Source of the DNA: Capitulum mitella
Lineage: Eukaryota; Arthropoda; Thecostraca; Pollicipedomorpha; Pollicipedidae
Direction of reading: 5' to 3'
Assembly (NCBI GenBank): GCA_030062745.1
Contig: CP099841.1
Coordinates: 22,013,398-22,077,397 of the forward strand
Length of the DNA: 64,000 bases
Shown here piece after piece: positions 5,221 to 57,660 of this stretch. Under the pieces are notes generated by a model. The model did no database searches, was not told the origin of the DNA, and worked only from the letters and a program-made list of their open reading frames with translations. Within the stretch, counting starts at the first letter, position 1, and each line of letters begins with the position of its first letter. Position numbers and translations under genes: made by a program.

Positions 5221-5392
5221 CGTTGAGCACGCGGACCATGACCTTGGCCTGGGCCAGTCCGTCCGGGTCGCAGAAGTACTCGCCGGAGTCGGACGGCAGC
5301 GCCCGCTCTATGCTGAAGTAGCTGACTGTGCGGTGGAGTTCGTAGGACGTCCGAACTTTGACTCCCTTGCGTGTTTTGTCAAACTGCACCAG
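5221..5392 (-). CDS. Dpr-like gene, exon 5: second half of Ig2
   Basis: Minus-strand exon starting after acceptor GATTCTCTGCAG in phase 0: LVQFDKTRKGVKVRTSYEL, then VSYFSIERALPSDSGEYFC and MVRVLNG. The R-x-G-V-x-V-x-T, SYFSIERA and PSDSGEYFC blocks and the terminal V-L-N-G are the standard C-terminal half of Dpr Ig2, including the second cysteine. The open frame continues upstream of this acceptor (to 5482), but the codons before CTG do not align with the family. It ends AAC-G followed by GTAAGT, splitting the usual N-G junction in phase 1. No stop codon or membrane anchor is present, so at least one more exon must exist at lower coordinates. The five exons together give about 240 residues. 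Confidence 0.94.
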
Positions 5393-15746: not shown

Positions 15747-15874
15747 CTTATTATCATATGTCCATCGAACGTTTTCAGGAGCTTTATGGGCATTTCTTAT
15801 AATGCAAGTTAGGTTGACCGTACTTCCTTTATTGATGAAAAGCTTCGGAGCACCCTCGATCTCCACTTTCGGAT
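15747..15874 (-). CDS. Dpr-like gene, exon 4: first half of Ig2
   Basis: Minus-strand exon after a strong acceptor (TTTTGTTGTTTCAG) and before donor AAG-GTGAGT. With the base left from exon 3 it encodes DPKVEIEGAPKLFINKGS, then TVNLTCIIRN and VRWTYDNK. The string L-F-I-N-K-G-S-T-V-N-L-T-C is diagnostic for the start of Dpr Ig2; the C and W are the canonical first cysteine and core tryptophan, and NLT is a potential glycosylation site. It ends in phase 0. Unlike exons 1-3 its codons are AT-rich at third positions (AAT, AAA, ATA, TAT, GAT), a marked contrast inside one gene. Confidence 0.95.
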
Positions 15875-20770: not shown

Positions 20771-22148
20771 TAAAATAAAAATCGGTAGCCTGTAATGAGG
20801 CGTCGGATATGGCCTGTTTGTTGGCCAGGAGATTACCGATGAAGTGACACGTCTGATCCAGCCCCCAAAATTGACGGCACGCTGTCGACCGCTGCAGAGA
20901 AACATGAAAAAGGCAAAACAACTCGGAACTGGAAAAATCAGATGAAATGTTCTGTCACAAAAGTGTGCTTTAACAAAAAGCGACCTCATCTCTAGCTTGG
21001 TCACGAAATTAGACGAGACCATGAACTAGTCGTTGACCGGTTGTGTAACTCATGACCTGGTGAAAAGTTAAAAAGATGTTCTTTGTATCTGTTATTACCA
21101 TTTCATGTTATAACTATTTTAGTCACTACAACAGATTTCTAACACGGAAAAGATAAAGCCATATTGTATGGGGCTAACCAATGAGCCTTGTTGACCAGCG
21201 ACCACCTGTTGGCATTTTTCACATCACACAGTTCACGTCACAGTCCCCGGTCACGCTTAAATTGCAAGGCCATGTAAATGGCCTTTACACCATCCATGAT
21301 CAGCCTCTTTTAATCCACCTAGCAAGAAAAACGCAAATAATACATAACAGCGCCCGGAACATTAAAAACAAAACACGTAACAATGAACAATACACGAAAA
21401 CAGAGCTTGACAACCGTCCTCTCTTTTGTATATGACATCGTTTGACATGGCATACGATGACTCGGCCAACGATTGACTTTAAAAGGTTAGTTGTATTGCA
21501 CATATTTCATTAAAAAATGAGGCCACTGGCTTTTGTTGTTTGACAGTTCTGCTGAAACAATACAACCAGTTGGGTGGAGGCAAATGCCAATTTCAGAAAT
21601 GTCGCAATAGCTTGCGACTTAAATACAAGAAATCTTGAAAACGTAGTACTTGATGCTGCTACAGAACTTAATCTAAACAAAATCTAATAAGTTTAATAAG
21701 TCTAATAAATAACTCTAAACTTAAGTCTAAAATGTGGATGGAAACATGCATTAGCGACCAACCATAGCCAACAATGTAGGCATTTCTCTATAGCCTCTAC
21801 ACAGAAACAAGACTGTGTTATTAAATTGTGCTTTTCCATACATTTTATAAGTCTCAGGAACTTGAGCATGATTTATTGGCAGTTTCGAGCTTCCCGAATG
21901 GGCCATAAGGAAACCACTTGCTGTGGAATGATTGGTGGTTTCAGCGGCTGGTATTACTGCAAACCTTTATGTGTTTCTGAAGGTCATGTACATCCATCCG
22001 TCGCAGTCTTTTTTGGGGACCAAAGATACTGCAGATTTCAACATTCATTGGAAATGCTGAACCAGTCGTAAACTAACTCACATGCAGAACTACTGCGTCC
22101 AGCGCGAAGCCCCCAGACTCCTGCGCTGGTTACCCAACGACGACACGG

Positions 22149-22375
22149 AACACTCACCGACCTCAGAACACTCATCACACCGCGGAGCACTCGCCGGTCA
22201 CGGAACATTCACCACGCCCAGAACACTCACCACGCCCCAGAGCACTTGCCGACCACAGAACACTCTCACCCCAGAGCACTCGCCAAACACAGGACACTCA
22301 CCACGCCGCGTGGCTCCCGCCTACCAGGGAACACTCACCACCCCCGAACAATGGCCACGTCCAGGAGCACTCACC
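22149..22375 (-). repeat. Minisatellite of splice-donor-like units next to exon 3
   Basis: On the minus strand the motif GGTGAGTGYTC, identical to the real exon 3 donor, recurs eleven times at 17-40 bp spacing. Plus-strand positions are 22365-22375 (the true donor), 22329, 22292, 22275, 22258, 22240, 22221, 22203, 22185, 22166 and 22149. Five copies keep exact GGTGAGT; others read GGCGAGT, GGCAAGT, GATGAGT or GGTGAATG. Between them are variable GTGG- and CGTGG-type spacers. The copy at 22329-22339 lies 36 nt beyond the true donor and would keep the reading frame with no stop. Confidence 0.9.
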
Positions 22376-22579
22376 GACGACGCTCAGGTAGACGCGGTGC
22401 GACACGGGCGGGGTGGCGCTGACTTGGCAGAAGTACCAGCCGGCGTCTGCCGGCCGCACGGAACGCACCCGCAGGCCCCACTCGTCGCTGCCGGCCTGGT
22501 GCAGCGGCTGGAACCGGCCGTCGATGGCGAATATCACGTCGCCGCTGGTGAGCACCTCGTACTGGCGCCCCCACGACAC
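22375..22579 (-). CDS. Dpr-like gene, exon 3: second half of Ig1
   Basis: Minus-strand exon after acceptor GGCAG at 22584-22580. It starts VSWGRQYEVLTSG (core tryptophan of the Ig fold) and continues with the Dpr hallmark GSDEWGLRVRSVRPADAGWY, then FCQVS with the second disulfide cysteine and a D-A-G tyrosine-corner motif. It ends YLSVV plus one base before donor GTGAGT, and that base completes an Asp codon with exon 4. Compared with usual Dpr proteins the W-x-R-x segment after the core tryptophan seems one residue short, and GDVIFAIDGRF replaces the usual stretch ending DQRF. This region lies on the face used for binding DIP partners in known Dpr complexes, so partner choice may differ. The donor is followed at once by a minisatellite of donor-like sequences (see 22149-22375). 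Confidence 0.93.
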
Positions 22580-24584
22580 CTGCCGGACACGGTGCGGTCA
22601 GCTCCGGCGCGGAGCGTGCGGAGTGCAGGACGCAAGGGAGCCGTCCCGGCCAGCCGGGCGTCTGGTGCGGCTATTTGTGGGCGCTCACAACGATATTACG
22701 ACAGTCTGGCATTGAATATCGTGACTCGAGGACGGCTGCAGGCAACTGCGCAATCGAAGTCGAAACTCGAATTGTGTATCACCGCCTCCCGGAACACCAG
22801 ATTGCGTTGGCCGGTTTTAGAAACGATTTGACATTACAAATTAGTCCCGCTTTAGTAGCCATTAGGAAACCATGAGTAGGCATGGCGTCCTTTATGTGCA
22901 TGAAATGAGGTTTTGCGGGAGCAAATATTTCCGGATGTACATTAGCAGCTTGATAGCGGCAATGAACATGCATAGTTGGGACTGGAAGGTTACGCCGCTT
23001 GTTCCAAAGGATGGTAATTATACAAACCAGCTTGCTGATTCTTTAAAAACATTTCGTTTCTGAGACAATCCCTTTTGAACGGCCTGTGATCGAGTATTAG
23101 GAATTTAAGATTTTCATTTGCACAGCAAATCGGGAAATGTTCCCAAATAATCTGTGTTTTGTCTGAACAGGTGTTTTTAGTTCCATTTCCGTTCTCGTGT
23201 CATCCTGCAGAAATACTACTGAATGTTCTTTGTGCTGATTAAAATTGGGGATATGAAAAGTAGCTGACAACAGAGTCATATTTCATATGGATATCCATAT
23301 ATCCGCATTTCAGTCCATTTGCAAATCTGACGTTCGACGTAATGCTTAAAAAACGCTGCGCAATTTGAGCTTTAAGTGCTGTGGTAAAAGCACGCTTATT
23401 CGAGCGAGACGGACAGAAAATGACAGTCATGCGGACTGATGCCCAACCTCATTGCTATGGTGTGTGGTAGGTCTCTCGATCCGAGCCTTGTGTTTAATGA
23501 TGCAGCCTGGTAAGTGTCACGTCTACTGGTCAGCGGCATGCTTTTCACTCGAGAAAGGCATCATTCCTCCCCTTCCACCCCCCCGCCGTGTTTTTCTGCG
23601 CGTTGCCCTTATCTTGCTTCAGAAAAGGGCCACTTTGATGCACCATCGGTCAAGTTTTATTGCAGCATTCATGCCTTAACACATTTCATTTCTAGTTCAA
23701 TCGGCGTCCAGATTGGACCTGAACGATACACGCTCACATCGTCTGCCATTAATGCGAAACTGTATCCATCACTTTGGCTGATTTCATATGCAAAACGTTT
23801 TAACCCACACACTCCGCGATCACCGCCGATTGACAATTTGCACTAATGTGTCTGAAACACTCAGCGCTTTGGATGTTCTCCGTTGAGACCGAATACATTA
23901 ATACAATGGACAGCCCGAGTGACATGTTAATTTAAACGTCAGCAAGCAGCCCACTTTTTTTAGTATTTCCCATATTAACAGGTCTATTTACATGAGACGC
24001 AAAGACAGCGACAGTCTAATGCATGAGAAAAGCAATGGTGTATCTAGACAAAATTGTATGAACAGCGTGCCAACGGCTGTTTTGCCTTGAGAATCTCTGC
24101 TAACGCAGTGTCTCGATCATGAGTCAATAAAACATTGCTTACACATTTATCTGTATCTATATGTGGCTTGGCGCCATTAACAAAAGGGGTTAAAAAGTGT
24201 CCCTCACCCCGATCTATCTTGAACTGCTTCTCGGATATGAATCATTCAGCTGCCAGTTCAGTATCTTGCAATTTGAGGATGCTAAGCAAATTCGTCTTGG
24301 TGTGATGATTAGGTCATAGTTCCAGCTTAAGTCCAAACTTGCCATGCTCTTTATCGATCCTGATGAAATCTGAAAAGGTGCCTCTTCACGACTGAATATG
24401 TAGAAAAACTGCGCAAATGAAGCAGAACCAGCGTTAAAAAACGGCGCACTCTTCCAATCGCGATCCACCACCGCTGTTGCATCCCCTCTCCCACTGCGTC
24501 CTCTCCGGCACCACTCCGTGCGACGCATCAGGAGGCGGGGGTCTGGGAGGGGGCGCCTCGGCCGAACTCCGCGGGGACACTCAC
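22580..24584 (-). other. Dpr intron 2 (2.0 kb)
   Basis: The shortest intron of the gene, splitting Ig1 next to the core tryptophan. Its ends are GC-rich and its middle is plain AT-leaning sequence with no repeat or RNA gene that I recognise. Confidence 0.8.
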
Positions 24585-24727
24585 CACCTGCCGGGGGCTG
24601 ACGTTGCGGATCCGACAGCTGAGTATGGCCGTGCCGTTCACTCGCGCCGTGACGTTCGGCGAACTGGCCTCGTCAAACTGCAGGCCGCCGGCAGCTTGGG
24701 CGGCGCCGGTCGCCGGCGATGTGTCCC
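24585..24727 (-). CDS. Dpr-like gene, exon 2: first half of Ig1
   Basis: Minus-strand exon after acceptor CCCCAG at 24733-24728, with a branch-point-like CTCTAAT upstream. After a short Gly/Ala-rich linker it reads LQFDEASSPNVTARVNGTAI then LSCRIRNVSPRQV. This matches the Ig1 N-terminal half of Dpr proteins (F-D-x(4)-P-x-N-V-T-A-x-V ... A-I-L-x-C-R-V), including the first disulfide cysteine. It has potential N-glycosylation sites NVT, NGT and NVS. Third codon positions are almost all G or C. The donor is duplicated (GTGGTGAGT). Ending at 24585 gives the stronger GTGAGT donor and protein QV-VSW; ending at 24588 gives QV-SW, which fits the family's spacing better. Both keep phase 0, so which is used is undecided. 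Confidence 0.85.
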
Positions 24728-46569: not shown

Positions 46570-46682
46570 GACCACCGTCCATCGCCGCTCGAGCTGATAC
46601 CACACCACCATCCATTGCTGCGCCAGCTGATACCAGACCGCCGTCCGCCGCTGCTTCAGATGACACCAGACCACTATGGTGG
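46570..46682. repeat. 33-bp minisatellite, left block
   Basis: Three and a part units of ACCACCGTCC(A/G)CCGCTGCT followed by CCAGCTGACACCAG, read on the plus strand. The same repeat in the same direction occurs at 49300-49437 and 49750-49800. It borders the left arm of the large inverted repeat. Confidence 0.85.
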
Positions 46683-49299: not shown

Positions 49300-49437
49300 G
49301 TTGCTCCCGCTACCACCAAACCACCGTCCACCGCTGTCCTAGAAGACACCAGACCACCGTCCACCGTTGCTCCAGCTGACACCACGCCACCGTCCAACGC
49401 TGTCCCAGAAGACACCAGACCACCGTCCACCGCAGTG
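49300..49437. repeat. 33-bp minisatellite, right block
   Basis: Four units of ACCACCGTCCACCGCTGTCC plus AGAAGACACCAG, in the same plus-strand direction as the left block at 46570. A further short block lies at 49750-49800. Confidence 0.9.
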
Positions 49438-57235: not shown

Positions 57236-57660
57236 GCCGCTGTCTGGGACAGGTCAGGAGGAGCAGGTCCGTCTGAGGCCCCTCAGGAGGACGGAGGTCA
57301 GTCTGGGACCGCTCAGGAGGACGGAGGTCTGTCTGGGGCCGCTCAGGAGGACGAAGGTCCGCCTGGGGCCGCTCAGGAGGACGAAGGTCGTTTAGGGCCG
57401 CTCAGGAGGACGAAGGCCCGTCTGAGACCGCTCAGGAGGACGGAGGTCTGTCTGGGGCCGCACAGGACGACAAAGATCGTTTAGGGCCGCTCAGGAGGAC
57501 GAAGGTCCGTCTTGGGCCGCTCAGGAGGACGAAGGTCCGTCTGGGGCCGCTCAGGAGGACGGAGACCCGTCTGGGACCGCTCAGGAGGACGAAGGTTTGT
57601 TTTTGGTGGTTCAGGATTGGTGTCTTAGGTTTCTCAGGAGGAGAGGTTTGTCTTGGGTGT
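57235..57660. repeat. 30-bp minisatellite, about 13 units
   Basis: Unit GGTC(C/T)GTCTGGGGCCGCTCA then GGAGGACGAA, most regular at 57290-57600 and fading to TTCAGGATTGGTGTCTTAGG-like remnants to about 57800. It starts at the edge of the GC islet on its left and points toward the next islet at 58000. Confidence 0.95.

Follow-up and report, generated by a model that had tools for sequence, protein, structure and literature searches.

Dpr-like gene on the minus strand

The window analyzed in this study is a 64,000-nucleotide stretch of contig CP099841.1 of Capitulum mitella. Its minus strand carries a gene that, modeled from homology and splice signals only, is Dpr-like, and it looks like a nerve-cell adhesion gene (Table 1). 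In phmmer searches against the PDB with a query 2–4 bases short at the exon start, the best solved relatives of the Ig1 exon ending at 22375 were Drosophila Dpr4 (E 8.5e-16) and Dpr6 (E 2e-09), in agreement with the original prediction of a Dpr-like gene; the same shortened exon, searched alone, gave no Pfam family. This exon (22579–22375) is predicted to splice to 15874–15747 and then to 5392–5221, so that the intron discussed below would extend from 22374 to 15875 (6.5 kb). The predicted junction at 22375/22374 is in phase 1 and reads ...YLSVV-DPKVEIEG.... The joined product of the three exons (...HRVYLSVV-DPKVEIEGAPKLFINKGSTVNLTC...) is stop-free, with Pfam Ig_3 (4.5e-13) matched over residues 70–152, its Ig2 part; the predicted gene has the Dpr-family order of a Dpr-type Ig1 followed by Ig2.

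The upstream Ig1 exon would end at 24588 (CAG/GTGGTG) or at 24585 (GTG/GTGAGT). These two candidate donors, 3 nt apart, lie in CAGGTGGTGAGTGTCC at 24575–24590 (minus strand); the first would give ..RQVSW and the second, which is nearer consensus, ..RQVVSW. By eye, the 13-mer GTGGTGAGTGTCC of this exon end recurs at the array unit 22302. A 19-nt inverted match (84%) was also seen between 22424–22442, which covers the GWYFC motif codons of the Ig1 exon, and 21945–21963 in the intron, possibly by chance.

Six long open frames from the window were searched against Pfam, each with no family matched; Rfam, across the window at gathering scores, also returned no match, and among 27 pattern stretches in viral contigs none was confirmed as a relative of the Ig1 exon.

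Table 1. Minus-strand features of the Dpr-like gene and of the repeat array, with the evidence for each.
Feature	Position	Strand	Basis
Upstream Ig1 exon, part (FDEASSPNVTARVNGTAILSCRIRNVSPRQ)	24588..24677	-	tblastn with Dpr fragments, E 5.9e-06; sequence; translation
Exon, C-terminal half of Ig1, Dpr-like; 205 nt, ends in phase 1	22375..22579	-	phmmer against PDB; boundaries from sequence
Minisatellite, 13 units of 16–19 bp (typical unit GGTGAGTGTTCTGTGGTC, by eye), 55-bp period	22141..22375	-	TRF, copy search
True donor GTGAGT (TCG/GTGAGT), within array unit 1	22369..22374	-	sequence, donor scoring
Alternative donor GTGAGT, +36, in frame, adds GECSWTWPLFGG	22333..22338	-	donor scoring, translation
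Alternative donor GTGAGT, +73, premature stop	22296..22301	-	donor scoring, translation
Alternative donor GTGAGT, +144, premature stop	22225..22230	-	donor scoring, translation
Alternative donor GTGAAT, weaker, +162, premature stop	22207..22212	-	donor scoring, translation
Alternative donor GTGAGT, +217, premature stop	22152..22157	-	donor scoring, translation
Next exon, first half of Ig2 (DPKVEIEGAPKLFINKGSTVNLTC...)	15747..15874	-	tblastn with a Dpr fragment, E 6.7e-09; TTTCAG acceptor, AAG/GTGAGT donor
Exon, second half of Ig2, ends AACG/GTAAGT	5221..5392	-	sequence similarity; Dpr4 by phmmer, E 5.1e-05

Tandem copies of the donor and their origin

Eleven minus-strand copies of GGTGAGTGYTC with at most two mismatches were identified within 22375–22148, as originally predicted. 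They start at 22375 (the true donor), 22339, 22302, 22284, 22268, 22250, 22231, 22213, 22195, 22176, and 22158. Five of them (22375, 22339, 22302, 22231, and 22158) keep the exact GGTGAGT, also as predicted, and only for these five of the 11 does the further claim that the copies are identical in core to the true donor hold; the other six differ from it. Nine copies have no more than one mismatch to GGTGAGTGYTC, and four match it at all 11 positions. Dinucleotide shuffling of the region (1000 replicates) produced 0.70 copies of GGTGAGTGYTC on average and never more than 4 (GGTGAGT: average 0.28, maximum 3), and in the rest of the window, on both strands, any 228-base stretch contains at most one copy. 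Chance is thus excluded as the origin of this clustering.

Two badly decayed units (22356 and 22321), placed by eye, fill gaps of 36 and 37 bases between copies and bring the count from the 11 copies with at most two mismatches to 13 units. TRF reported a period of 18 (score 88) and one of 55 (score 168), together with 34 and 16 for parts of the array, and in a self-comparison over lags 10–119 only lag 55 exceeded 50% identity (52%). As the 55-bp period is the stronger one, part of this growth was probably by blocks of three units. The 18 bases beyond the array, from 22140, have no likeness to the unit.

As had been claimed, the array opens with the true donor, which is in register with the units that follow and agrees with the core at all 11 positions. 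The last 18 nt of the exon agree with the stretch before each of 10 copies at only 1–6 of 18 positions, which indicates that the repeat begins at the splice junction. This register and the complete core match tend to favor a possible seeding of the array on the donor over an array that came to include it. Beyond the core, the next seven bases of the true donor's unit match the other units at only 1–4 of seven positions, and this weakens the case for amplification from this very segment. A G-rich minisatellite may instead have grown within the intron until its edge became the donor. The absence of exon sequence from the unit, the resemblance of the true donor's unit to the rest mainly in the 11-base core, and the presence of the two most decayed units among those nearest the exon are consistent with such an origin, but the register and full core match of the true donor argue against it, as does a comparison with a set of 16 arrays found elsewhere in the window, to which ten further TRF arrays (short or dinucleotide) do not belong. 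On neither strand does any of the 16 have a GT donor that reaches 7.78, the top-1% score; their best is 7.5. We therefore regard an origin away from the donor as unlikely; it concerns origin and is compatible with neutrality of the array, so that the probabilities of the two overlap. The donor-like score of 7.5 belongs to the plus strand of a minisatellite at 57240–57600, for which TRF gave periods of 30, 89, and 119.

Strength, products, and variation of the spare donors

Donors were scored with a rough matrix and by U1 duplex energies. The four spare GTGAGT donors (22338, 22301, 22230, and 22157) reach matrix scores of 8.6–9.2 against 8.6 for the true donor, and among the 3841 GTs of the minus strand they rank 14, 15, 16, and 26, with the true donor at 25. 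Their U1 pairing energies (−8.7 to −8.9 kcal/mol, against −8.9 for the true donor) are weak evidence, because they were computed without a fixed donor register and the non-GT unit 22268 also gave −8.1. The equal scores suggest that U1 could bind the spare sites. Equally strong competing donors can favor the one nearer the acceptor, and substantial use of spare donors would therefore be possible.

Nine sites were translated, comprising the true donor, five alternative GT donors, and three GC donors, the last from units other than the two badly decayed ones. With seven of the eight alternative donors, the partial product is cut short by a stop following residue 92 or 93. Open products come only from the true donor and from 22338, so that 22338 is the only site that could substitute for the true donor in frame. 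This agrees with the prediction that the nearest extra GT donor, 36 nt downstream, would add GECSWTWPLFGG with phase kept and no stop. The +36 site could accordingly be a genuine alternative that lengthens the Ig1–Ig2 linker by 12 residues in some transcripts, and it scores 9.2 (GTG/GTGAGT) against 8.6 for the true donor with the rough matrix. Such an isoform appears quite unlikely, however, since in our judgement the insert would place a single Cys and two Trp in an extracellular linker, and the unit between the true and the +36 donors is badly decayed.

The donor dinucleotide itself varies. In the 12 units downstream of the true donor, it is GT in five, GC in five, and neither in two (over the 11 copies: six GT, three GC, one GA, and one AT). 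Across all 13 units, variation among the 11 core positions is greatest at the second base of the donor dinucleotide (7 T, 5 C, 1 A) and at the Y (8 T, 5 C), and the G at core position 8, which lies outside the nine-base donor consensus, is present in 13 of 13. Selection for spare donors predicts the reverse, and the pattern points away from selection and toward a donor dinucleotide that is not preferentially kept; the units descend from one another, however, and if those with GC go back to a common ancestor, they would stand for fewer than five losses.

The original prediction proposed that the array might buffer splice-site mutation, create isoforms, or compete for U1. These roles are not supported, given the retention of GT in only five of 12 downstream units and the stops that follow seven of eight alternative donors, although four spare donors score as high as the true one. 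A function for the array is weakly supported. RNA structure in the array was considered and rejected, since its predicted fold is no better than those of shuffled sequences (z 0.74, with equal or greater stability in 158 of 200). Two unit subfamilies, distinguished by linkage of T/C at position 3 with position 9, are not claimed (Fisher p 0.07, from a table of 12 units filled by hand post hoc, with 22268 left out).

Comparison with known repeats and interpretation

The original prediction knew of no tandem expansion on a splice donor in this family. No report of a donor-including repeat in the Dpr family was found in the literature among the listed titles to which the search was limited, whereas the arrangement itself has been published for human ABCA7 and CBS. 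In ABCA7, a VNTR in intron 18 begins with the exon's own donor; its unit is 25 bp long, the reference genome has 23.7 of these, alleles of 315 to 9711 bp are mentioned, and the repeat is linked to Alzheimer's disease (PMC5954066). The donor one unit downstream is used, with about 2% one-unit retention that causes a frameshift, is subject to decay, and is higher when decay is blocked (PMC5954066). Use of this next-unit donor did not change with repeat length, and skipping of exon 19 rose with it (PMC5954066).

These ABCA7 observations bear on whether the barnacle array tunes expression or splicing, by extra U1 recruitment, by leakage into nonsense-mediated decay, or by G-runs that strengthen the first donor. 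Four strong extra donors, five runs of at least three G, and a total of 100 G among 227 bases would fit such tuning, as would the length-dependent exon skipping in ABCA7. On the other hand, seven of the 12 downstream units have no GT, and next-unit donor use in ABCA7 was unchanged by repeat length; tuning by the array seems improbable. Both repeats directly follow an exon and have that exon's donor as their first GT, and the barnacle array likewise starts at the exon's own donor (core 11/11) and extends from the junction into the intron. They differ in unit length (16–19 bp here, 25 bp in ABCA7) and in frame, as one-unit retention shifts the frame in ABCA7 and the first spare GT donor here, at 36 nt, keeps it.

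The spare donors of the human CBS VNTR are reported to be used. Its name, c.1444_1467+7(16_21), denotes 16–21 copies of a 31-bp unit in which 24 bases from the end of the exon are followed by the 7 that open the intron (PMC2630376). Going by that name, each CBS unit spans an exon–intron junction, and both repeats include a splice donor; unlike the CBS unit, which is mostly exon sequence, the unit here starts at the junction, and no clear exon match was found upstream of the copies. A 7-bp repeat in LHX3 was set aside as a parallel, as it leaves the donor unaltered (PMC3223203). Intron gain by tandem duplication is the subject of a further listed title (PMC4974935). Given the ABCA7 and CBS precedents, the array adds another gene family to an arrangement already known. 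Donor-including minisatellites thus also occur in a Dpr-like adhesion gene, where the array provides a natural test of which donor a spliceosome selects when several near-identical ones lie within 220 bases; its spare donors, if used, would offer a simple route to new isoforms.

The array is likely a minisatellite in decay that has a splice donor among its units, was amplified from the exon-junction segment, and is probably neutral, with minor leaky splicing at most. The array itself, its register with the true donor, the phase, the approximate donor strengths, and the pattern of decay are direct results, whereas we infer the mutational mechanism, neutrality, and splicing outcome, the neutrality from one array in one genome. 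Slippage or unequal exchange would have amplified a short stretch with the exon's own donor in tandem, from the exon–intron junction into the intron and partly as 55-bp three-unit blocks, and the array would now be decaying without visible constraint on the donor dinucleotide. The main mRNA is expected from the first donor. Low-level leakage at the +36 donor may yield the 12-residue insert, and transcripts from later donors would mostly be removed by nonsense-mediated decay. It is very unlikely that the array is kept because it works, either by producing an isoform of a neuronal recognition protein with 12 more linker residues or by setting expression through leaky splicing into decay, with length as a tunable trait.

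Elsewhere in the window, two arrays 2.6 kb apart (46570–46674 and 49300–49433) apparently have a related 33-bp unit with GACCACCGTCCA, as judged by eye.
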